NCBI GenBank assembly: GCA_947629865.1
Contig: CANRFJ010000002.1
Location: 149,071 to 213,070 of the forward strand
Origin: an uncultured Lachnospiraceae bacterium
Lineage (GTDB): Bacteria; Bacillota; Clostridia; Lachnospirales; Lachnospiraceae
DNA length: 64,000 bases
Reading direction: 5' to 3'
Under the pieces are notes generated by a model. That model was not told where the DNA came from. It saw nothing but the letters and a program-made list of their open reading frames with translations, and ran no database searches. Shown in pieces: positions 15,129 to 40,058 of the stretch (positions within the stretch are counted from its first letter, which is position 1; each line of letters begins with the position of its first letter). Made by a program: the position numbers and the translations under genes.

Positions 15129-15893
15129 ATGAAATTATTGCCCCAGTGTCCGGAGCATATCCGGGAGGGAGAATTGTATTACTGTCCGATTTTGCAGGCG
15201 CAAAGGAGGGGAGGGGAGGAGGAGATTTGCTCCCTCTGCCCTGCTTTTAATGAGGCCAGAATGGGCTGTTCTGAGTTGCAGAGGGCGTTTATGTTTGCTG
15301 CGGAGGCCCACAGGGGGCAGGTGCGCAAGGGGACGGATATCCCCTATTTGATTCATCTGATTCGCACATGGGATTACACCCGACAGATGAGTGACGACAG
15401 GGAAGAACAGATAGCGGCCCTCCTTCACGATATACTGGAGGATACCCCTGTGACAGAGGAGGAACTCCGCGTGCGGTTCGGGGACAGGGTTGCCCGTCTG
15501 GTGGCAGAGGAGAGCGAGCAGAAACGCTCAGAACTTCCGCCGGGAGAGACCTGGCAGCTCCGCAAGCGGGAGACCATTGACCGCCTGAGACGGAAGGCGG
15601 GAGAGCCGGATGAGGAGTCTGCGATTCGCATTGCCCTGGCGGACAAGCTGGCCAATCTCTACTCCATGGCGTATGAGTACCGGATTGTCGGCGACATTCT
15701 GTGGAAGAAGTTTAATCAGAAGGATAAGACCATGCACGCCTGGTATTACGGTGAGATGGGAAGAATATTCGCCGCGTGTTTTGAGGGCGGGGATTCGGAC
15801 GGGAGCGCAGGCAGGGAGGCCGACCTGGTGAGAGAATATCACACATATTACAAGGAGGTTTTTGGAGAAAATGAAATTTCAGTCGGTCAATGA
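15129..15893 (+). CDS. HD-domain phosphohydrolase (SpoT/MESH1-like)
   Basis: AHRGQVRKGTDIPYLIHL, ALLHDILEDTPVTEEEL. Confidence 0.8.
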   Translation: MKLLPQCPEHIREGELYYCPILQAQRRGGEEEICSLCPAFNEARMGCSELQRAFMFAAEAHRGQVRKGTDIPYLIHLIRTWDYTRQMSDDREEQIAALLHDILEDTPVTEEELRVRFGDRVARLVAEESEQKRSELPPGETWQLRKRETIDRLRRKAGEPDEESAIRIALADKLANLYSMAYEYRIVGDILWKKFNQKDKTMHAWYYGEMGRIFAACFEGGDSDGSAGREADLVREYHTYYKEVFGENEISVGQ

Positions 15894-16362
15894 GCTGGAG
15901 CATTTTTCCTTTGAGGACTCGGAGATACAGGAATTGCAGGCGGCTCCGGAACAGCTTACCTTCACTCTGAGCGGAGCGCTTGTAAAAGAGGAAAATTCCC
16001 AGAACAGCCGGTACCAGGACATGTACTGCGGCACACTGGTGCTGCAGCTTGAGCATGTGAAGATTGCCCGAATCGTCAAAGAGGGATTTAAGTACTATGA
16101 CGCAGACGGAAGGCTTTTGCGGGAAGTGCCGGACGAGGATGTGCCGGAACAGGAAGCGCCTCAGGTGCTTGACCGGTGCAAAAAGGGCAGGATATTTACC
16201 ACGGTGGAGGACACGGTGGAATCCGGTTATGCCTGGGAATTTGGCATTGATGTTCCCAGAGAGGAAGATGAGGAGGAAGTGGACACCTTCTGGCTGTGCC
16301 TCCTGTTTGAATCCGCCACTGCCATGTGGGAGCGCTATTGCTCTCCTGCGGAAAGCAGTTAA
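15871..16362 (+). CDS. Hypothetical protein
   Basis: ORF with AAGGAGG upstream; overlaps preceding CDS. Confidence 0.6.
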   Translation: MKFQSVNELEHFSFEDSEIQELQAAPEQLTFTLSGALVKEENSQNSRYQDMYCGTLVLQLEHVKIARIVKEGFKYYDADGRLLREVPDEDVPEQEAPQVLDRCKKGRIFTTVEDTVESGYAWEFGIDVPREEDEEEVDTFWLCLLFESATAMWERYCSPAESS

Positions 16363-16393
16363 AAATCAGATAAATATATGAGATAAAATATGG

Positions 16394-16438
16394 ACATACT
16401 TCTATTAAGTAAATGCAAAATAGAAGTATGTTTTTTTT
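16394..16438 (+). terminator. Intrinsic terminator
   Basis: ACATACTTCTATT / AATAGAAGTATGT then T-tract. Confidence 0.85.
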
Positions 16439-16498
16439 GCTTCCGCGGTATGGCTGGCGGGAAGCAGCGTCGGAGAGCATGGTGATACGGAGGTAAAA

Positions 16499-18757
16499 AT
16501 GTTAGATAAGATAACCGGACAATTATATAAAAAGACAGTGGCGCAGTGCAGTGAAAAGGAACTGTATGCCTCGCTCATTCATCTGGTGCGAGAGCGGGCG
16601 GGGCGGCGTGAGTCCGGCGGAGGAAAGCGCAAACTGTATTATATCTCAGCGGAGTTTCTCATCGGCAGACTCCTCTCCAACAACTTAATCAACCTGGGGA
16701 TTTATGAGGAAATAAAAAACGAGTTGGAGCAGGCGGGAAAATCTCTGGCCGACTTGGAGGAGATGGAGCCGGAGCCCTCTCTTGGCAACGGCGGACTGGG
16801 GCGGCTGGCGGCCTGTTTCCTGGATTCTGTCGCCACGCTTGGACTGAGAGGAGACGGCATCGGGCTGAACTACCATATGGGCCTGTTCCGTCAGGTGCTT
16901 GAAGACCATAAACAGAGAGAACTCCCCGACCGCTGGATCGGGGAAGACGGGTGGGAGATCCGCCGTGATAACAGTTATACGGTCAACTTTGGGGACTTCT
17001 CTGTGCGCTCCACCCTGTATGACATCGAGGTGCTCGGCTATGAAAACCGAACCAACCGCCTGCACCTGTTCGATCTGGACTCCGTGGACGACCGCCTGGT
17101 AAAGAGAGGCATTTCCTTTGATAAAAGGCGGATACAGGAAAATCTCACCCTGTTTCTGTATCCGGACGACAGCGACGAGGAGGGGCGGCTGCTGCGGCTG
17201 TATCAGCAGTACTTTATGGTGAGCAACGCGGCCCAGTTTATTCTGGAGGAGGCGGTGGAGGCAGGCTGCACTCTGAAGGATCTGCAGGAGTATGTGATGA
17301 TCCAGATTAACGACACGCACCCCTCCCTGATTATACCGGAGCTCATACGGCTTCTGACGGAGCGCGGAATGAAAATGAAGGAGGCTGTCGCAGTGGTGAC
17401 AAAATGCTGCGCCTATACCAATCACACCATTTTGTCGGAGGCGCTGGAAAAGTGGCCGCTGTCCTACATTAAGGAGGTGGCTCCGGCGCTGGCGCCGGTT
17501 CTGGAGGAGTTAGATGCCAGGGTAAAGAAAAAATATCCCGATAGCGGGACGGCCATTATCGACATGGACAACCGGGTGCACATGGCTCATCTGGCGATCC
17601 ACTATTGCCGGAAGGTAAACGGTGTCGCCCGCCTTCACACGGAGATACTAAAGGAGGAAGAACTGAAAGATTTTTATCGGATTTATCCGGAGAAATTCAC
17701 AAGCAAAACAAACGGAATCACTTTCCGGCGCTGGCTTCTGCACTGCAACCGTCCCCTGGCAGACTGGATCAGGGGAAAGATCGGGGACAGGTTTATCAAG
17801 GATGCGATGGAGCTGAATAATCTTTTGTCCCTCGCGGGGGATATACAGGCGGGAGAGGAAGTCCGCGCCATCAAGAGGAGGAACAAGGAAGCGCTCGCGG
17901 AGTATCTGAAAAGGACGCAGAAACTGGAACTGGATCCGGATTCGGTCTTTGACATACAGGCAAAGAGGCTCCATGAGTACAAGCGCCAGCAGCTGAACGC
18001 CCTCTTTGCAATCCACAAATACCTGGAGATACGGTCGGGGAAGCGTCCGGACATACCAATCACAATGATTTTCGCAGCCAAAGCGGCGCCGGCCTATACC
18101 GTTGCCAGGGACATCATTCACCTGATTTTGTGTCTCCAGACATTGATTGAGAGAGATGCGGACGTCAGTCCCTGGCTGCGGGTGGTGATGGTGGAGAATT
18201 ACAATGTCACTGTGGCGGAGAAACTGATACCGGCCTGCGACATCTCCGAGCAGATTTCGCTGGCGTCCAGGGAGGCCAGCGGCACGGGGAATATGAAATT
18301 TATGCTGAACGGAGCAATCACTCTGGGAACGAGAGACGGCGCCAATGTGGAGATTGAAGAACTGGTGGGAGCGGATAACATTTACATTTTTGGGGAGGAC
18401 AGCGACACTGTGCTGGAGCGCTACAGGGAGAGATCCTATAGTCCCCTTCCCTATTACAAAAAGAATCCGCAGCTTAAGGAGGCGGTGGATTTTATCATCT
18501 CGCCCCGACTGCGTCAGATCGGCGACGCAACGGCCCTGAACCGGCTTTATCGGGAGCTGGTGTTCAAAGACTGGTTTATGACCTTTCCGGACTTTTCGGA
18601 TTATTTACAGACGAAGGAACGGGCCCTGCGGGATTATCAGGACTCTGCGGGCTGGGCCGAGAAAATGATTATAAATACGGCGAAGGCGGGATATTTCTCC
18701 GCCGACCGCACAGTTGCGGAGTACAACAGGGACATCTGGCATTTACAGGGCGGCTGA
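16499..18757 (+). CDS. glgP: Glycogen/starch/alpha-glucan phosphorylase
   Basis: [46 protein letters not shown]. Confidence 0.95.
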
Positions 18758-26382: not shown

Positions 26383-27957
26383 CTACTTGGCGTAATCCAC
26401 TACTCTGGATTCGCGAATTACATTCACCTTGATCTGTCCCGGATACTGTAATTCTGCCTCGATTTGCTTAGACAAATCACGGGCCAGCAGTACCATCTCA
26501 TCATCATTGATCTGATCCGGTATTACCATCACTCGAACCTCTCTACCTGCCTGAATAGCAAAAGACTTATCAACACCCTTGAAGCTGTTAGAAATATCCT
26601 CTAATTGTTTTAACCTGTTCGTGTAAGTTTCCAGTGTCTCTCTGCGGGCGCCCGGACGCGCGGCAGAGATCGCATCGGCTGCCTGTACCAGACAGGCAAT
26701 CATGCTCTCGGCCTCTACGTCGCCGTGATGAGCCTCCACAGCATTGATAACCAGCGCGGATTCCTTGAACTTACGACACAATTCGGCGCCCAGCTGAATG
26801 TGGGAGCCCTCCATATCGTGGTCAACGGATTTGCCGATGTCATGTAACAGACCGGCCCGCTTGGCCATGCGCACGTCCACGCCAACTTCGCCGGCTAACA
26901 GGCCGGACAGATGGGCAACCTCAATGGAGTGCTTTAACGCATTTTGCCCATAACTGGTGCGGAACTTCATTTTACCCAAAAGGCGAACCAGCTCCGGATG
27001 GATACCGTGTACGCCGACCTCAAGGGTGGCGGCTTCGCCTTCTTCACGAATCATTGTCTCTACTTCTTTTTTGGCCTTATCAACCATTTCCTCGATTCTG
27101 GCCGGATGGATTCGGCCGTCCACGATGAGTTTTTCCAAAGCAATTCGGGCGATTTCCCTGCGAATCGGATCAAATCCGGATAAAATTACGGCCTCCGGCG
27201 TATCGTCGATAATCAGATCGATACCGGTTAAATTCTCAAGGGTGCGGATATTCCGCCCCTCCCGACCAATAATTCTTCCCTTCATCTCGTCGTTTGGCAG
27301 CGGTACAACAGAAATCGTTGTCTCGGACACGTGGTCGGCGGCACATTTCTGTATCGCAGTAACCACAAAATCCTTGGCTTTTTTATCCGCCTCGTCCTTA
27401 GCCTGACGCTCCAATTCTTTCACCAAAACTGCAGTTTCGTGTTTGACATCTTCTTCTACAGTCTTCAATAAGTATTCTTTTGCCTGTTCGGAGGTGAGAC
27501 CGGAAATTTTTTCAAGCTCGCGCATATGGCTCTGACGGAGTTCTTCCACCCGTTCCTTTTCCTTTTCAAAGCTCGCTTCACGCGCGTTCATCTTTGCTTC
27601 CCGTTTCTCGAGTGCGTCCAGTTTTTTGTCCAAAGTTTCTTCTTTACCTAATACACGCTTCTCATAGCGCTGAACTTCGGCCCTGCGTTCCTTGACCTCC
27701 TTGTCGAGGTCGTTTTTGGCTTTCAGGTTTTCTTCCTTGGCCTCCAGCAGAGCTTCCCGTTTCTTCGTCTCGGCCGTCTTTAAAGCGTCGTCAATGATCT
27801 CTCTTGCCTTTTCCTCTGCGCTTCCCACCTTGGCTTCTCCGACCTTGATGTGGTAGGAGATGGCGCTTTTCCAAGTCACCAAAGCAGTAATCGCCAGAAG
27901 GATGATTACGACTATGACAGCCACGATTGTAAACATCAACCCTGGCACCAGGAGCAC
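26383..27957 (-). CDS. rny: Ribonuclease Y
   Basis: N-terminal TM and coiled coil, [31 protein letters not shown]. Confidence 0.96.
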
Positions 27958-28256
27958 CTCCTTTATTTATTTGTTGCACGCAAATACAACAATACTATTC
28001 TACACTTTTTCCGCCTATCTGTCAAGTTGCAATGGAGCTCCGAAATCATTGCGGAAATCATTGACAAAAGCCGTCACATGCCGTATTCTTAAATTAACTA
28101 CAGCAGTAGTGCGTGATGTGATAATGTCTGTGGAGGCGGGTGGCCCGGAGAGGGAATCGTCCTATAAATTTTTAAAAAATAAATTTCAGATTAAAATTGT
28201 ATTATATCAGGAAAAAGCAGGGCGCAGACGGCTGGAATTATCCAAAACCGCATAGA

Positions 28257-28274
28257 TTATGCGCGTTCGCATAA
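28257..28274. promoter_or_regulatory. Palindromic operator-like site upstream of XRE regulator
   Basis: TTATGCG-CGTT-CGCATAA. Confidence 0.4.
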
Positions 28275-28338
28275 AATATCCATACTAACAGCGAAAATTT
28301 GTTGCTATGATTAAGAAAACGGATAAGGAGCGACTGGT

Positions 28339-28698
28339 ATGGGTAGGACAAGCAATGATAAAAAGAATCCCATAAATGTATTTGTGGGCAGAAATCTCCG
28401 CTATTTTATGGATTCCAACGACATATCTGAGCAGGAACTTGCTGACGGCTTTGGTATAGAAAAAGAGTCGCTGCAACGTATTTTGAATGGAACGAATGGC
28501 ATATCCAGCGTGTATTGCAATATTTTAGCCATGCGTTACAACTGTGACATGAATCTGATTTTCCGCGGAATCACAGAGGACGATATGATCCGGCCCGATG
28601 AGTCGGAGACAGAGGATTATGATGCGAAACAGGCACTGAAGGAAAGTATGATCCGGCAATTGCACTATCTGGCAGACATTCTTGATATATTGCAGTAG
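28339..28698 (+). CDS. XRE-like helix-turn-helix regulator (copy 1)
   Basis: SEQELADGFGIEKESLQRILNGTNGISSVYCNILAMRYNCDMNLIF. Confidence 0.7.
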   Translation: MGRTSNDKKNPINVFVGRNLRYFMDSNDISEQELADGFGIEKESLQRILNGTNGISSVYCNILAMRYNCDMNLIFRGITEDDMIRPDESETEDYDAKQALKESMIRQLHYLADILDILQ

Positions 28699-28734: not shown

Positions 28735-29997
28735 ATGTTGCTGCACGCGGTTGAATTGCTGGAAGTTCTTGGAATATTGTTATGCGTGAATTATCTGTAT
28801 GGAAAGAAATATCGGTTTCGGTTTCATGATGTCATTTTTGTGCTGTCTGGCGTAATGATTCTCACAATAGTCAATGCCGGTAAAGAGAGCGGGGAGTTGG
28901 CGTTTCTTTACTATATTGTCATGTTTATTTATATGCTGCTCAAATTTGAGGGACATATAAAAACGGCTTTTATCAACGAAATTTTGTGCATTATTCTGAT
29001 GTCCCTGTTTCAGCTTATCGGCGCCCTTCCTGTCTTTGCCCCTGATTTGCCCGTTTCCGCAGACGTAAAGGCGGGAATGGTCAATCTGCTGGTGCTGGGA
29101 TTTGTCCTGCTCCCTGGAAAGGCGGGGTATCTGCACCGGCTGTCTCTCTTTGCGAGGAGGAGCAGCTGGCTTTTTCGCGGGATTCTCATCTGCTGCTGCG
29201 CCGGAATGATATACCTGGTGGTGATGTACCGGCTGACGCATTATCTGCGGGCGACAGACTATCTGATCTTTGGGCTGTGGACGCTGCTAATCTGTGTGCT
29301 GGCGATAAAATGGCAGAAGGCGAAAAGCGAGAACATCATGAGCAGACATGAGATGGAGATGCGCAGAACCTATGACAAAGTCTACGGTGAACTGCTGGAA
29401 TCCATTCGCAGAAAACAGCATGATTTCAACAATCACATCAATGCCATATACAGCCAGCATCTGGTGGCGCAGGATATGGAAGACCTTGTGAGGCGGCAGC
29501 GGGAGTATTGCCAGCTTGTGGTAAAGGACAGCCAGTACAGCAGACTGCTTGTGAAGGGCGCTCCCTTTGTTGTCGGGTTTCTCTATTTCAAATTTACCAC
29601 AGCGGAGCAGAGGGGCTGCGAGATTACATATCGGGTTGAAAATTCAGAACTGAAATGCCGGATTCCGGCTTACAAGGTAGTGGAGATGCTTGGCATATTA
29701 CTGGATAACGCCGTGGAGGCGGTACAGAATATGGAGAAAAAGGAAATTGAATTTGAAATGCTGGAAAATGAAAAGCAGATACATATTCTGGTCAGTAACA
29801 TTTCCGTCCACATACCGCAGTCACAGATTTACCGGCTCACGGAGGCCGGATACAGCACAAAGGGCGAGGGGCGCGGCATCGGGCTGGCCAACCTGATTGA
29901 TACGCTGCGCTCATACGACTGTGATCTACTGGTGTTTAACCGTCAGACAAAAAGCGGAAATCATCTGGCCTTTGAGATGAATATTCCCAAGACATAA
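28735..29997 (+). CDS. AgrC-like GHKL sensor histidine kinase
   Basis: N-terminal TM segments; QHDFNNHINAIYSQH; GRGIGLANL. Confidence 0.82.
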   Translation: MLLHAVELLEVLGILLCVNYLYGKKYRFRFHDVIFVLSGVMILTIVNAGKESGELAFLYYIVMFIYMLLKFEGHIKTAFINEILCIILMSLFQLIGALPVFAPDLPVSADVKAGMVNLLVLGFVLLPGKAGYLHRLSLFARRSSWLFRGILICCCAGMIYLVVMYRLTHYLRATDYLIFGLWTLLICVLAIKWQKAKSENIMSRHEMEMRRTYDKVYGELLESIRRKQHDFNNHINAIYSQHLVAQDMEDLVRRQREYCQLVVKDSQYSRLLVKGAPFVVGFLYFKFTTAEQRGCEITYRVENSELKCRIPAYKVVEMLGILLDNAVEAVQNMEKKEIEFEMLENEKQIHILVSNISVHIPQSQIYRLTEAGYSTKGEGRGIGLANLIDTLRSYDCDLLVFNRQTKSGNHLAFEMNIPKT

Positions 29998-30031
29998 CGG
30001 GCCGCAATACCATGCGGGTATGCGGCCGCGG

Positions 30032-30060
30032 AAAAATAAGCGGTGCAGCCGCTTATTCGG
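30032..30060 (-). terminator. Intrinsic terminator after agrD-like gene
   Basis: On - strand: AATAAGCGG-CTGCA-CCGCTTATTTTT. Confidence 0.7.
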
Positions 30061-30178
30061 TCGGATATTTCTGCTCGCCGAACAGGAAGAAACTGACCTT
30101 ATCCCAAAAAGCAAATCCGGCAAATGCGATGCAGAGATTGCAGGCTTTGAATATCCAGGATTTAGTAAAGCGTTTCAT
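30053..30178 (-). CDS. AgrD-like cyclic autoinducer precursor, 41 aa (not in ORF track)
   Basis: MKRFTKSWIFKACNLCIAFAGFAFWDKVSFFLFGEQKYPTE; ATGA overlap with agrB stop; terminator follows. Confidence 0.72.
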   Translation of the reverse strand: MKRFTKSWIFKACNLCIAFAGFAFWDKVSFFLFGEQKYPTE

Positions 30179-30741
30179 TTATTTCCCCTCCTTTTCCATA
30201 TTTTTGCTGCCGCCAGTTGGGCGGTGTGCAGCAGAATAGTCCAAAAACCAGTGGCTGTGTACTGGCTGAATGGCAGAATTAACAACAGGATTGCACAGAA
30301 AATGATGATTCCGGCAGACTGCCGACGGGATCTGCGCACCAGAGCTTCATCGGGCTCAGGCCGGTAGGAGGAAACCACGGGCGCGAGACGGTAATTGCAC
30401 ACGGCGCAGGCGACGGATAGCAGCGCCATCAGGTGCCGGCTCGGATACAGGCCGTATGGTATCCAGACGGGGATGAATACACAGGCGGACAAGATGAAAA
30501 AGGAGACAAGGAAACAAGAGATGTAGCGCTTAAAATGCAAACCACCGGTGCAGGTTCGCAGCAGGCACATGAGAAGGGCCGCTGCCAAAAAGAAGCGGAA
30601 CCTGCCTGTCACAAGGAAAAAAATTCCCATCAGAATCAGTTTGCTGGTCTCAGAGAGGACGCTCATAACCGTATAGCGAATTTGCCCAATCTGAAAATCA
30701 GTGTACCCGAAGGTGGTTTTCAGATAACCAGATACATTCAT
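30175..30741 (-). CDS. AgrB-like accessory gene regulator (autoinducer processing protease)
   Basis: Multi-TM; LLRTCTGGLHFKRYISCFLVS with the His/Cys signature of AgrB. Confidence 0.85.
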   Translation of the reverse strand: MNVSGYLKTTFGYTDFQIGQIRYTVMSVLSETSKLILMGIFFLVTGRFRFFLAAALLMCLLRTCTGGLHFKRYISCFLVSFFILSACVFIPVWIPYGLYPSRHLMALLSVACAVCNYRLAPVVSSYRPEPDEALVRRSRRQSAGIIIFCAILLLILPFSQYTATGFWTILLHTAQLAAAKIWKRRGNK

Positions 30742-30800
30742 AACCGTGCCTCCTCAATACAAAAATTGTAACAGGCGGCGCGCGCAGAACCCTATATTTT

Positions 30801-30845
30801 TACTGAACAGTGCAAAAATGAAACGGAATGAAATAACTGTTTCAG
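30801..30845. promoter_or_regulatory. Candidate LytTR-type inverted repeat between divergent agrBD and agrA
   Basis: ACTGAACAGT ... AACTGTTTCAG. Confidence 0.35.
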
Positions 30846-30858
30846 AATGGAGGAAAAG

Positions 30859-31587
30859 ATGAAAAAGGTAATGATTCTGGAAGACCAGAGGGATTCCAGG
30901 GACGCGCTGGCGCAGATTGTAAAGAGCGTGGACGCAAATGCCAGAATCTATGCTGTGGGGCGGGCGAGCAACGCCTACGCCATCGCCATGGAACACTCGA
31001 TTGATTTGTTCCTGATTGATATTATCCTGCGCCCCGACAAGCGGGGCGGCGACCAGTCCGGAGCCGAGTTTGCCCAGAATATCCGCATGGTGGAGCGGTA
31101 CAAATTCACGCCCCTCATTTTTGTGACGTCCCTGTACGACACGAAAATGCACATGTACTCCTCCGTGCACTGTTACAAATTTATCGAAAAGCCCTTTGAC
31201 TGGGACGCTGTGCGGGAGGTGATTCGGGAGGCGATGTCCTATCAGACGAGAAATCCGGAGGGGCGGGTTGTGTTTTATCGAACCGGAGGACTGTTGGAGG
31301 CCATTACAATTACCGATATTATTTATGCGGAGAATCGTCAGCACCGGCTGAAGGTGGTGACGGAGAATGGGGAAGTTCGGATTCCCTACCGGCCGTGCAA
31401 GGAGTTTCTCAGGGAACTGGATTCAGAGGACTTTTTGCAGTGTAACCGGAGCACTATCGTAAATCGCAACTTTATAGAGAGGATCGATCCGGCAAACCGG
31501 TATGTATATGTGAAGGGGAGAGCGGAGGCGCTGGAGATCGGCTCCGTCATGAAGCGTGAATTTCTCAGAAATATCCGCACAATATAA
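30859..31587 (+). CDS. AgrA-like LytTR-family response regulator
   Basis: Receiver MKKVMILEDQRDSRDAL, LytTR FLQCNRSTIVNRNFIERID; GGAGG RBS. Confidence 0.85.
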   Translation: MKKVMILEDQRDSRDALAQIVKSVDANARIYAVGRASNAYAIAMEHSIDLFLIDIILRPDKRGGDQSGAEFAQNIRMVERYKFTPLIFVTSLYDTKMHMYSSVHCYKFIEKPFDWDAVREVIREAMSYQTRNPEGRVVFYRTGGLLEAITITDIIYAENRQHRLKVVTENGEVRIPYRPCKEFLRELDSEDFLQCNRSTIVNRNFIERIDPANRYVYVKGRAEALEIGSVMKREFLRNIRTI

Positions 31588-31737
31588 AAGGACACAGGTT
31601 ATGGTTCCGTACATTTTTTGCAGCGTCTGGTGAAAAAATAGCCGTCAGGAGTTATCAGGCTGTATTCTTCATTATTAAATAAGAGTATTGAGTTTATTAC
31701 AGAAAATAATGAAGAAGTACAGGAGAAAGTGACGAAG

Positions 31738-32088
31738 ATGAAAACTGGCTATGAATTTACGGTGGAAAATGCAGGAAAGGAAAGCGTAGACGAACTGGTA
31801 GGACAGAAGCTGAAAAGATTTCGTGAAATATACAGCATAGGACGGAAGGAAATGGCAGACCGGTTCCACATCACGGAGGATGCCCTGTACCGGATTGAAA
31901 AGGGAAAGGTAGGGCTTTCCAGTGAATATTGCTACATACTTGCCAATGAGTTAAATTGCGATATGAATTACCTGTTTGGCAACAGTCCGGTTCCGCAGCG
32001 AATGGAGTCCTTTCGGAAAAAAGATATAACGGGGAGAGAGATAGGGCGGATTCTGCGGTATTTCGCACACATTCTGGAGACGGAATAG
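31738..32088 (+). CDS. XRE-like helix-turn-helix regulator (copy 2)
   Basis: RKEMADRFHITEDALYRIEKGKVGLSSEYCYILANELNCDMNYLF. Confidence 0.75.
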   Translation: MKTGYEFTVENAGKESVDELVGQKLKRFREIYSIGRKEMADRFHITEDALYRIEKGKVGLSSEYCYILANELNCDMNYLFGNSPVPQRMESFRKKDITGREIGRILRYFAHILETE

Positions 32089-32122
32089 ACGGGGAACCGA
32101 CGTATTGTTTGGAGGGGCGGCC

Positions 32123-32689
32123 ATGTTAATTTTCCTGGCAATGCTGGATGATCCAGATGATAAAGATAGATTTGCCAGATTGTATAACGAATATAAGGGA
32201 CTTGCTTTCTGGATAGCGAATCAGATATTGAAGGACGAATATCTGGCGGAGGACGCTGTGCAGGAGGCGTTTGTTCGTATTGCGAAAAATTTTTCAAACA
32301 TATCGCTAGACGAAGCGGCTGCGCCCCGGCAGACAAAAAGCTTTGTGACCGTCGTGGTAGAGCGGGCGGCCATTGATATCTACCGGGCGAGAAAGAAGCA
32401 GATGAACTGCGAAGTCCTCAGCGAGAAAATAGACGATACCATGTTTGCCCTGGACGAGTACGGGGAAGAATCCCTGCTCGGCGAGAGCGTTCTCTTTCAG
32501 GCCGTGCGCCAGCTGCCAAAACAGTACGGGGAGATTATGCTGCTGCACTACGTCCATGATCTGAGCAATCAGGAGATTGCCCGACTGTTGGATATGAAAG
32601 AGGCCACGGTTCGGAGCAATCTGAGCCGCGGAGTATCAAAACTTCGGGCGCTGCTCTTGGAGGACGAGAGCGGGCAGTGGCAGTTCTAA
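32123..32689 (+). CDS. Sigma-70 family (ECF-like) RNA polymerase sigma factor
   Basis: Region 2 ILKDEYLAEDAVQEAFVRIAKN, region 4 YVHDLSNQEIARLLDMKEATVRSNLSRG. Confidence 0.85.
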   Translation: MLIFLAMLDDPDDKDRFARLYNEYKGLAFWIANQILKDEYLAEDAVQEAFVRIAKNFSNISLDEAAAPRQTKSFVTVVVERAAIDIYRARKKQMNCEVLSEKIDDTMFALDEYGEESLLGESVLFQAVRQLPKQYGEIMLLHYVHDLSNQEIARLLDMKEATVRSNLSRGVSKLRALLLEDESGQWQF

Positions 32690-32778
32690 AAGACATATCT
32701 ATAGGATTCCAAGTGAAATTCAGGGTTTCCAAAGCCATCGAAAATATGCTATAATACAGCAGGGAGGCGGAGGAAATC

Positions 32779-33447
32779 ATGACGAAAATATTTCTGGTAG
32801 AAGATGATAAAAGTATTGTGGAGAACCTGACGGAATTTCTCCGCACGGAAAACTTTTCTGTAGAGACTGTTTCCGGACAGACGGAGGCGCTCAGGCGTCT
32901 GGAGACAGAGCGGTACGATCTGATACTTCTGGACATTTCCCTGAAGGAGGGAAACGGTTTTGCCGTGTGCTCCTATGTAAAGCAAAATACGGATATGCCG
33001 GTTATCTTTCTCACGGCTTCCGGCGATGAGTACAGCGTGGTCTCAGGGCTGGATATGGGGGCGGACGATTACATCAGCAAGCCATTCCGTCCAAGGGAAC
33101 TGGTATCGAGAATCCACAGCGTCCTGCGCCGCTGCGGTAAGGTGCAGTCCATGTATGAATCGGGGGGCGTCTCCATTGACACGACAAAGGCGTCTGTCAA
33201 AAAGAACGGGGAGGAGATTTACCTGTCGGCGCTGGAATACCGGATCTTACTGACGCTTTTCCACAACAAGGGGACTCTGCTGACGCGGGAGATGCTCCTG
33301 AACGAGATCTGGGACGTGGCGGGCGAATTTGTCAATGACAACACGCTCACGGTATACATCCGCAGAATCCGCAGCAAGATTGAGGATGATCCGGCAAAGC
33401 CGCGGATTATCCAGACTGTTCGGGGAATGGGATATAAGGTGGAATAA
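32779..33447 (+). CDS. OmpR-family response regulator
   Basis: Receiver plus winged helix (TVYIRRIRSKIEDDPAKPRIIQTVRGMGYK). Confidence 0.92.
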   Translation: MTKIFLVEDDKSIVENLTEFLRTENFSVETVSGQTEALRRLETERYDLILLDISLKEGNGFAVCSYVKQNTDMPVIFLTASGDEYSVVSGLDMGADDYISKPFRPRELVSRIHSVLRRCGKVQSMYESGGVSIDTTKASVKKNGEEIYLSALEYRILLTLFHNKGTLLTREMLLNEIWDVAGEFVNDNTLTVYIRRIRSKIEDDPAKPRIIQTVRGMGYKVE

Positions 33448-33479
33448 AAATAAGCGCCGGAATATGGAGGGAGGCAGAG

Positions 33480-34490
33480 ATGGCCTATCTGCGGAACAGG
33501 GAGATAAAATGGGAAATTCTTATATTTGCCGCGCTCTGGTGCGGAGGCTGCGTCCTGGGAGCAGTGACGGCAGGGCTCTTGGGGGCGGCGTCGGCGGCTC
33601 TCACAGGATTTCTTTTTTTGTTCTGCCATTTTTTCCTCTCTTACCGCCGTTACCGCAGGATTGCGGAGCTCTCGGAGCGGATCAGCCGGTGTATGCGCGG
33701 GCAGGAGGAACTTTTTATAGCGGAGCAGAGGGAGGGCGAACTCTCGGTGCTGGAGACAGAGGTGCAGAAGATGGTTCTCCGGCTGAAAAATCAGGCTGAC
33801 CTGTTGAAAAATGACAAGATCTATCTCTCCGATTCCATCGCCGATATATCCCACCAGATACGGACTCCGCTGACTACGGTAAACCTCATTGTGTCCCGCC
33901 TGTCCGTGCCGGAGCTGTCTGCCGGTAAGCGCAGGGAGCTGCTGAAGGAACTGGAGGAGATGCTGATACACATCGACTGGCTGATCCAGTCCCTTTTGAA
34001 AATTTCCAGGCTGGACGCAGGAACCATTGTCATGCAGCGGGAGAAGGTGTCTGTGCGTGAACTGATCCGCCTTTCCACAGAGGCGTTGGAAATTCCCATG
34101 GAATTAAAGGGGCAGACGCTGAGGATATCCTGCGGGAGTGACGTGTGCTTTGACGGCGATATAAAATGGGCGAAGGAGGCTCTCCTGAATATTGTCAAGA
34201 ACTGTATGGAACACACGCCGGAGGGAGGCTTTATAAAAATCGAGGCGGAAGAAAATCCCATATATACGGAAATCGTTGTACAGGATAACGGGCCGGGAAT
34301 CTCTCCGGAAGAACTCCCCAGTCTTTTTGAGCGCTTCTTTAAGGGCCGGAATTCAGCGGAGAAAAGCGTGGGCATAGGGCTGGCGCTGGCCAAAATGATT
34401 ATCGAGGAGCAAAAGGGGAGAGTGTCGGTGGAAAATGTACCGGAGGGTGGGGCGAAATTTGTAATTCGTTTTTATAAGGCGGTGGTGTAG
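33480..34490 (+). CDS. Sensor histidine kinase
   Basis: DISHQIRTPLTTVNL, QDNGPGISPEELPSLFERFF, GIGLALAKMI. Confidence 0.92.
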   Translation: MAYLRNREIKWEILIFAALWCGGCVLGAVTAGLLGAASAALTGFLFLFCHFFLSYRRYRRIAELSERISRCMRGQEELFIAEQREGELSVLETEVQKMVLRLKNQADLLKNDKIYLSDSIADISHQIRTPLTTVNLIVSRLSVPELSAGKRRELLKELEEMLIHIDWLIQSLLKISRLDAGTIVMQREKVSVRELIRLSTEALEIPMELKGQTLRISCGSDVCFDGDIKWAKEALLNIVKNCMEHTPEGGFIKIEAEENPIYTEIVVQDNGPGISPEELPSLFERFFKGRNSAEKSVGIGLALAKMIIEEQKGRVSVENVPEGGAKFVIRFYKAVV

Positions 34491-38177: not shown

Positions 38178-39371
38178 ATGCTAGTACAATTTATGGTAAA
38201 GAATGTTTTGTCTTTTAAGAAAGAGACTGTTTTGGACATGACAGCAATTAACGCATATAAAGAGCATGAATGTAATTTGATTGAGTACGGGACAAAAGAG
38301 AGGATTCTCAGGGTGGCAGCCATTTATGGGGCAAATGCAAGTGGGAAGTCAAATCTGTATCTGGCAATGAAATATTTTCAGCAAATTATTTTGGCGTCAT
38401 TTAATAATGTGGAAGATGGTGAGAGGACGGCAATTGACAAGTTTTACCGGCCGTTTCTATTCGAAAAAGGGAAGGAAAATTCAGAATTTCAGATAATTGA
38501 AATATTAAATGGCTATGAGTACAAGTATGGATTTGAATATAATGCGGATTGTATTGTGACGGAATGGTTGTACAGGAAAAGTCTGGAAACAAACAGAAGA
38601 ACAACTATTTTTGAAAGAAGCACTGATACCGTTGAATTTGGGGCTTTGGTGAGAAAGGAGTGCGACGTATATAAGGAACAGCTTCCGGCTGAAACCTTAG
38701 TACTTTCTTTTTTTAATAAGTTAAAACTAAAAACGGATATTTTCAAAAGCGTTTATTCCGGAATAATGAGCACACTGGTAGTTCCGACCGATTTTTTTGA
38801 GGACAAATCTATTTTGCAAACGTATTTGCCAAATGTCATTGACAATGACAAAGAGAAGTTAGTAGAATTTTTATCGGCGATTGATACAGGTATTAAAGAT
38901 ATTATTTATGATGACAGCGAAAATGAACTGAGTTTTTTTACGTTTCATAGCGGAAAAGAGGGAGAGGATTATCCGTTAAGTTTATTTTATGAATCGGAGG
39001 GCACGATTAAAAGTATTATGCTGTTTATTTATGCCAGAATAGCAATTTTGAATGACGCTTCTATTTTTGTGGACGAGTTGAATATTAAACTGCACCCTCT
39101 GCTGTTAAAATTTATTATTGACTTGTTTTATGATGAAAACTCTATGGCGCAGTTGGTTTACACAACGCACGATACTACTTTGATGGACAAAAAGTTTTTC
39201 AGGAGAGATCAGATTTGGTTTGTTCAAAAGGATGAGTTCGGTTATTCAGAGTTATCCGCTTTGTCTGATTTTAAAGTCAGATCGGATGCATCATTTGAAA
39301 AGGATTATCTGGCGGGAGTGTACGGTGGGATTCCTCTTATCAAGGAGTTTATGATGAAAGAGGGTGAATAA
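38178..39371 (+). CDS. AAA ATPase (RloA/AbiLi-like)
   Basis: Walker A YGANASGKSNLYLAM, IFVDELNIKLHPLLL, YTTHDTTLMD. Confidence 0.82.
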   Translation: MLVQFMVKNVLSFKKETVLDMTAINAYKEHECNLIEYGTKERILRVAAIYGANASGKSNLYLAMKYFQQIILASFNNVEDGERTAIDKFYRPFLFEKGKENSEFQIIEILNGYEYKYGFEYNADCIVTEWLYRKSLETNRRTTIFERSTDTVEFGALVRKECDVYKEQLPAETLVLSFFNKLKLKTDIFKSVYSGIMSTLVVPTDFFEDKSILQTYLPNVIDNDKEKLVEFLSAIDTGIKDIIYDDSENELSFFTFHSGKEGEDYPLSLFYESEGTIKSIMLFIYARIAILNDASIFVDELNIKLHPLLLKFIIDLFYDENSMAQLVYTTHDTTLMDKKFFRRDQIWFVQKDEFGYSELSALSDFKVRSDASFEKDYLAGVYGGIPLIKEFMMKEGE

Positions 39372-40058
39372 ATGGGATCAGATGATATATTCAAAAAGCG
39401 GAGGGAAGAACGAAGACAGAGGCGGCATGAGTACAGGACACCCAAAGCGAATTCTTTTCTGATTGTGACAGAAGGTGAAAAGACAGAACCATTGTATTTT
39501 AAAGGGCTTCAAAAACTCATCAAAGAAAAAGTGGGCGGAATGGTCGATGTTATTGAAACCCCTGTGATAAAAATTTGCGGAGAGGGCTGTGCGACAGAAA
39601 AATTGATCGAGATTACAGAAAAAATTGTAAAAGACGCAAAGATAATATACCAAAATGTCTGGGTGGTTTTTGACAAGGATGATTTTGAAGATTTTGATCA
39701 GGCGATACAGGACGCTGCAAATAAGGGATATAAGATAGCATGGAGTAATCCGTCGTTTGAATATTGGTTGTATTTACATTTCTGTTATAGCGATGCGGCG
39801 CTTCATAGAGACGAATGGAAGAAAAAATTAGATGCCCTGTTCAAACAATACCAATTAGGAGACGGCATTTATAAAAAGAATTATGAAAATATATATGATT
39901 TAGTTGATTCTTTTGATGGTGTGGATACCGCAATAAAAAATGCAAAAGGAAGGATGGCCTCTTTCAGAAAAGGTATTGATAAATGCTCTGCATTTGATCC
40001 AGGAACGATGGTGTATCAACTGGTGCAGGAATTGAAACAGTATCTGAACGAAGTGTAA
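39372..40058 (+). CDS. RloB-family protein (AbiLii-like, Toprim-like nuclease candidate)
   Basis: SFLIVTEGEKTEPLYFKGL, WVVFDKDDFEDF, NPSFEYWLYLHF. Confidence 0.82.
   Translation: MGSDDIFKKRREERRQRRHEYRTPKANSFLIVTEGEKTEPLYFKGLQKLIKEKVGGMVDVIETPVIKICGEGCATEKLIEITEKIVKDAKIIYQNVWVVFDKDDFEDFDQAIQDAANKGYKIAWSNPSFEYWLYLHFCYSDAALHRDEWKKKLDALFKQYQLGDGIYKKNYENIYDLVDSFDGVDTAIKNAKGRMASFRKGIDKCSAFDPGTMVYQLVQELKQYLNEV

Follow-up and report, generated by a model that had tools for sequence, protein, structure and literature searches.

Among the described systems closest to the present locus is agr of S. aureus, in which AgrB acts through Cys84 and His77 and depends on Arg70, and in which Cys28 and Met32 of AgrD are used and Asp33 and Glu34 are needed, Asp33 being reported as essential for cleavage by AgrB (PMC10196373). 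Two further systems make lactones: in the S. intermedius group agr produces serine lactones, and the Fsr system of E. faecalis has a lactone pheromone, GBAP, made by the AgrB-like FsrB (PMC3673130). In Clostridia, AgrD peptides are described by the model TIGR04223; these are likewise small precursors and occur in the bacterial family considered here.

The DNA analysed, which we call the window, is a stretch of 64,000 nucleotides from an uncultured Lachnospiraceae bacterium. Positions 28735-31587 hold a complete agr-like locus in the order agrC (+), agrD (-), agrB (-), agrA (+). It comprises an AgrB with the catalytic His and Cys, a polytopic GHKL-type AgrC, an AgrA of the LytTR type and a small AgrD adjoining agrB, with a leader, a Cys/Ser position plus four residues and an acidic, Pro-containing tail; the residue at the predicted ring-closing position is serine. 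The likeness to S. aureus agrBDCA lies in the R/H/C spacing of AgrB and in the GHKL and LytTR types of AgrC and AgrA, and the peptide shares with S. aureus AgrD a nucleophile, three residues and a hydrophobic residue, with Glu two residues on. The window differs in having Ser for Cys and Gly for the essential Asp33, in placing agrBD on the strand opposite agrC and agrA, and in the XRE regulators alongside. As in the S. intermedius group, an agr-made lactone would be closed by serine, whereas the ring of GBAP is four residues larger than the one predicted here, and fsrD lies within the fsrB sequence. We read the locus as a self-contained agr-type quorum-sensing circuit that would make a Ser29-Phe33 lactone, and put the probability of this reading at about 0.78.

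Organisation of the locus

The agrC gene (28735-29997, + strand) encodes a polytopic sensor histidine kinase of 420 residues with 6-7 hydrophobic segments, the H-box RKQHDFNNH and a GHKL domain (HATPase_c_5, 2.5e-11), and matches the structure of the S. aureus AgrC kinase module (6e52) at 1.9e-10. On the opposite strand, agrB (30175-30741) encodes a membrane cysteine endopeptidase of 188 residues that matches PF04647 at 2.6e-25. The response regulator gene agrA (30859-31587, +) has a LytTR DNA-binding domain (2.2e-13) and a Response_reg domain (3.3e-9). All open reading frames of the complete locus claimed in the original prediction are in place, and the domain matches fit agrC, agrB and agrA. 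The start of agrA is probably 30859 (MKKVMIL..., 242 residues) and not 30847, because the ATG at 30847 overlaps the ribosome-binding site and is missing in L033, a Lachnospiraceae MAG and the closest relative identified. Directly before agrC, a gene for an XRE/Cro-C1-type helix-turn-helix regulator of 119 residues (HTH1, 28339-28698, +) shows sub-threshold HTH_3 and HTH_26 matches and is probably co-transcribed with agrC. A second XRE-type regulator (HTH2, 31729-32088, +; HTH_3, 3.3e-6) is related to HTH1, the two cross-matching in the comparison with L033.

The usual, though not defining, arrangement of agr is a co-directional B-D-C-A operon, and the original prediction set against it the position of agrBD on the minus strand between plus-strand agrC and agrA. 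That description stands, but the layout is not unique in the clade: agrA-agrC runs tail to tail against agrD-agrB in about 15 relatives, and tail-to-tail agrBD/agrC is the common layout of the window's clade. Only the position of agrA is peculiar to the subclade of the window, L033, L034 and L035, in which agrA lies beyond agrB and divergent from it, and an HTH gene directly precedes agrC. An alternative within the same family, L117 (4885-7449), has agrA, agrB, agrD and agrC all co-directional. From these differing layouts it follows that agrBD and the kinase-regulator genes were rearranged several times, yet stayed together.

It could be argued from L047 and L122, where agrB has no recognised agrC or agrA neighbour, and from the very hydrophobic rings across the whole subfamily, that the cyclic peptide of AgrBD is mainly an antimicrobial or interference signal and that the neighbouring agrC-agrA serve another input. 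We hold this to be very unlikely. In nearly all relatives agrC and agrA remain beside agrBD through the layout changes, and the sensor half of AgrC varies faster than the kinase half (67 versus 77% identity to L033, 37 versus 51% to L034, and roughly 20 versus 35% further out), the usual pattern for a receptor that would track, and co-evolve with, its ligand.

The wider neighbourhood is conserved to different depths. In the window, HTH2 is followed by a sigma-70-family factor, an OmpR-type response regulator and a HisKA kinase (32105-34490), and L033 has HTH-agrC, agrDB, agrA, HTH, sigma factor and two-component pair arranged in the same way. L034 and L035, with about 52% AgrB identity, share the agr layout with the window, but the sigma factor-OmpR-HisKA order was not found there and the neighbours are others (a release-factor gene, an esterase), so conservation of the agr unit does not depend on where in the chromosome it lies. 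In one genome of the same genus (G108) no agr locus is present at the window's site and the flank is rearranged, the RNase Y gene (26384-28010 in the window, 15207-16835 in L135 of that genome) standing in opposite relative orientation; the site beside the window's agr locus is a rearrangement breakpoint and a site of gain or loss. Further along the window, an AAA_21 ATPase gene is followed by one for an RloB-like protein (38178-40058), a pair that resembles candidate anti-phage modules.

The best candidate for a control region is a non-coding block of 66 bases 5' of HTH1-agrC (28273-28338, +), which is nearly identical in L033, whereas the sequence further upstream is not; it may serve as promoter or operator. 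The divergent agrB-agrA promoter region (30742-30858) keeps islands in L033 (ACTGAAC-GTG and TGTTTCAGAA-GGAGG) that may hold binding sites; a search of the intergenic regions with the S. aureus AgrA-type binding-site consensus gave no match. Between the convergent ends of agrC and agrD lies a candidate terminator region with two hairpins (29998-30060). The hairpin that the original prediction read as a terminator is found here, as AATAAGCGG-CTGCA-CCGCTTATT followed by TTT on the minus strand and overlapping the agrD stop, but a consensus terminator scan did not list the stretch. Its fold has an energy of -34.8 kcal/mol and a z-score of -2.9 against shuffles on the plus strand; on the minus strand the z-score is -2.1 and the minimum-energy fold pairs differently. 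XRE-type HTH genes adjoin many loci of the subfamily, with HTH1 and HTH2 in the window and one such gene in L034 and L035. In L036, L112 and L115 a protein of 229-245 residues with two HTH regions is encoded just before agrA, and it has a relative in L038.

The peptide gene downstream of agrB

The 41-residue AgrD-type peptide of the original prediction is encoded at 30053-30178 (-) with the sequence quoted there, and its ATG overlaps the agrB stop (ATGA), as had been stated. Compared with L033, the open reading frame has 23 nucleotide differences, distributed as 2, 1 and 20 over the three codon positions; changes affect 17.5 of 22 synonymous and 5.5 of 101 nonsynonymous sites, which places agrD under purifying selection. 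The peptide is the better conserved of the two products, with 90% identity to L033 for AgrD and 75% for AgrB. Homologous small open reading frames lie 3' of agrB in about 25 genomes, nearly all of them Lachnospiraceae and nearly all directly after agrB. Among all small open reading frames listed 3' of agrB in relatives whose AgrB is about 30-40% identical, one stood out per intact clade locus; as a rule it overlaps the agrB stop or lies directly against it.

The 41-residue open reading frame is a real gene and not a chance occurrence. The opposite reading, a spurious frame beside an AgrB that lacks an adjacent substrate, can point to the fact that no database family recognises the peptide, but it is already contradicted by the conservation, with its third-position bias and its homologues 3' of agrB, and by a profile of AgrD that matches new genomes at 1e-10 to 1e-14; its probability is close to nil. 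Searches of Pfam, NCBIfam and PHROGs with the window AgrD returned nothing meaningful. At its curated cut-off, the TIGR04223 quorum_AgrD model matched neither the window peptide nor the subfamily AgrD of two other genomes (G031 and G040), and 1 of 10 homologues gave a weak match. Applied to the window's own genome, the same model found two other AgrD peptides and missed that of the window. One of these (C19, about 15459-16878) belongs to the genome's second agrB and is a Cys peptide (SCCHWFYGQSEEP); the other (C31, 10995-11099) is apparently an orphan. Among the TIGR04223 members sampled, 8 of 9 have Cys, and the tail is mostly [Y/H]-[Q/E]-P, in contrast to the Ser and G-E of the window peptide.

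The predicted ring and its closure

The predicted pentapeptide ring, Ser29-Phe-Phe-Leu-Phe33 (30080-30094, -), is followed by Gly34-Glu35. Conservation of this core was a point on which the original prediction could have failed. In an alignment of ten AgrD homologues Ser29, Gly34, Glu35 and Pro39 are invariant and Phe33 is kept in nine, which agrees with the proposed core and argues for serine as its nucleophile. The subfamily follows the pattern [S/C]-x3-[F/L/W]-G-E, then usually Pro. Of 27 peptides, 22 carry Ser and 5 carry Cys at the position five residues before Gly-Glu, with mostly hydrophobic residues in between; this tally was picked by motif and is partly circular, whereas no motif entered into the choice of the ten aligned homologues or into the listing of every open reading frame 3' of agrB. 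Serine, the exception among mostly Cys-bearing relatives in the S. intermedius group, is thus the rule in the present subfamily and extends over many genera. On the AgrB tree the Ser and Cys types are interspersed, with at least two changes forced by well-supported branches and six in the best tree, and one sister pair (support 100/96) joins a SLILF peptide (L041) to a CTFFF peptide (L043).

About half of the peptides carry a Cys 13 residues before the ring serine, often as CxxC, and it has to be considered that the mature signal is linear, or is a longer peptide that uses the leader C13-x-x-C16, so that Ser29 would not be the ring nucleophile. This appears unlikely: ahead of the ring, Cys is missing from 10 of the 27 peptides (one of the 10 being partial), whereas the ring position never holds anything but Ser or Cys, an interchange expected of a nucleophile. 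Four complete Ser peptides (L041, L042, L117 and L134) contain no Cys anywhere, so a thiolactone is impossible for these four. In the window the leader cysteines Cys13 and Cys16 are encoded at 30131-30142; a lipobox-like leader (LTGC) occurs in L036 and L112 and not in the window. At two contig ends of one genome (L044, 5923-6507, and L121, 1-110), the agrB frame continues into an AgrD-like core (PSIIFFGEPEYP) as a single open reading frame, which is either a fusion or an assembly artefact.

The product with the best support is a serine lactone of SFFLF, released ahead of Gly34. Residues R62, H69 and C76 of AgrB are invariant in ten homologues, and their spacing is identical to that of R70, H77 and C84 in S. 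aureus; likewise, Ser29 to Glu35 of the window AgrD has the spacing of C28 to E34 in S. aureus AgrD. From these spacings we infer that AgrD is cut after Phe33 and that the hydroxyl of Ser29 closes the ring. The clear departure from S. aureus AgrD, Gly34 at the position of Asp33, counts against this. The lactone chemistry is plausible, given the agr-type lactones of the S. intermedius group and of E. faecalis (GBAP). Searches of the PDB with AgrB and AgrD profiles returned nothing, and an AlphaFold model of AgrB built from four sequences was too poor (pLDDT 47) and was discarded.

Cleavage, cyclisation, export, sensing and targets are predicted as follows. AgrB would cut the 41-residue AgrD between Phe33 and Gly34, and the Ser29 hydroxyl would attack the Cys76 acyl-enzyme, giving a lactone of five residues, Ser-Phe-Phe-Leu-Phe, whose N-terminal tail a second cut would trim. 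The membrane half of AgrC would sense the exported peptide, and AgrC would phosphorylate AgrA, which in turn would act through its LytTR domain on promoters that probably include the divergent agrB/agrA region. HTH1 and HTH2 may form a second layer of control.

Distribution and meaning of the subfamily

Of 250 genomes sampled from the family, 41 hold a relative of AgrB at E-values up to 1e-3, in most cases a distant one. With E below 1e-4, a search of 397 family genomes gave clear members of the AgrD subfamily in 13, including the genome of the window itself, and 391 genomes of the class held two weak members. A profile built from ten AgrD peptides returned further members in other genera (G264, G394, G273 and G391; E 1e-10 to 1e-14), as well as two weaker members outside the family. 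Weak profile matches (E above about 1e-3) fell mostly inside long frames and were taken as chance unless they had an agr-like setting.

A search of plasmids for AgrB gave none, and the AgrD profile gave no confirmed match in viral contigs. One contig classed as viral (L134, 4998-5659; IMG/VR contig IMGVR_UViG_3300035422_000236) carries an agrBD of the subfamily with the core SMVLF. Since it sits at one end of the contig, with genes of bacterial appearance next to it (one HTH, one helicase-like), it was not counted as evidence for a phage-borne origin. We found no report of a serine-type AgrD in Lachnospiraceae in the literature searched, from which subscription journals were mostly absent.

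Judged by its sequence, the locus is most likely a largely unannotated, serine-dominant variant of agr that would work like agr. Whether it represents a widespread agr branch of the Lachnospiraceae, with serine lactones as the standard signal, an XRE regulator of its own and a CxxC motif in the leader, we regard as an even bet. Thiolactone-based discovery chemistry is probably blind to serine-type peptides. If such a branch exists, its serine-lactone signals would escape both current AgrD annotation and thiolactone-trapping chemistry. Hardly any peptide signals have been characterised from commensal Lachnospiraceae, and the subfamily offers defined, testable pheromone sequences from about 20 genera, mostly unnamed by automatic annotation. 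The natural interchange of Ser and Cys inside one AgrB clade would also provide a direct route to what makes AgrB give a lactone or a thiolactone.
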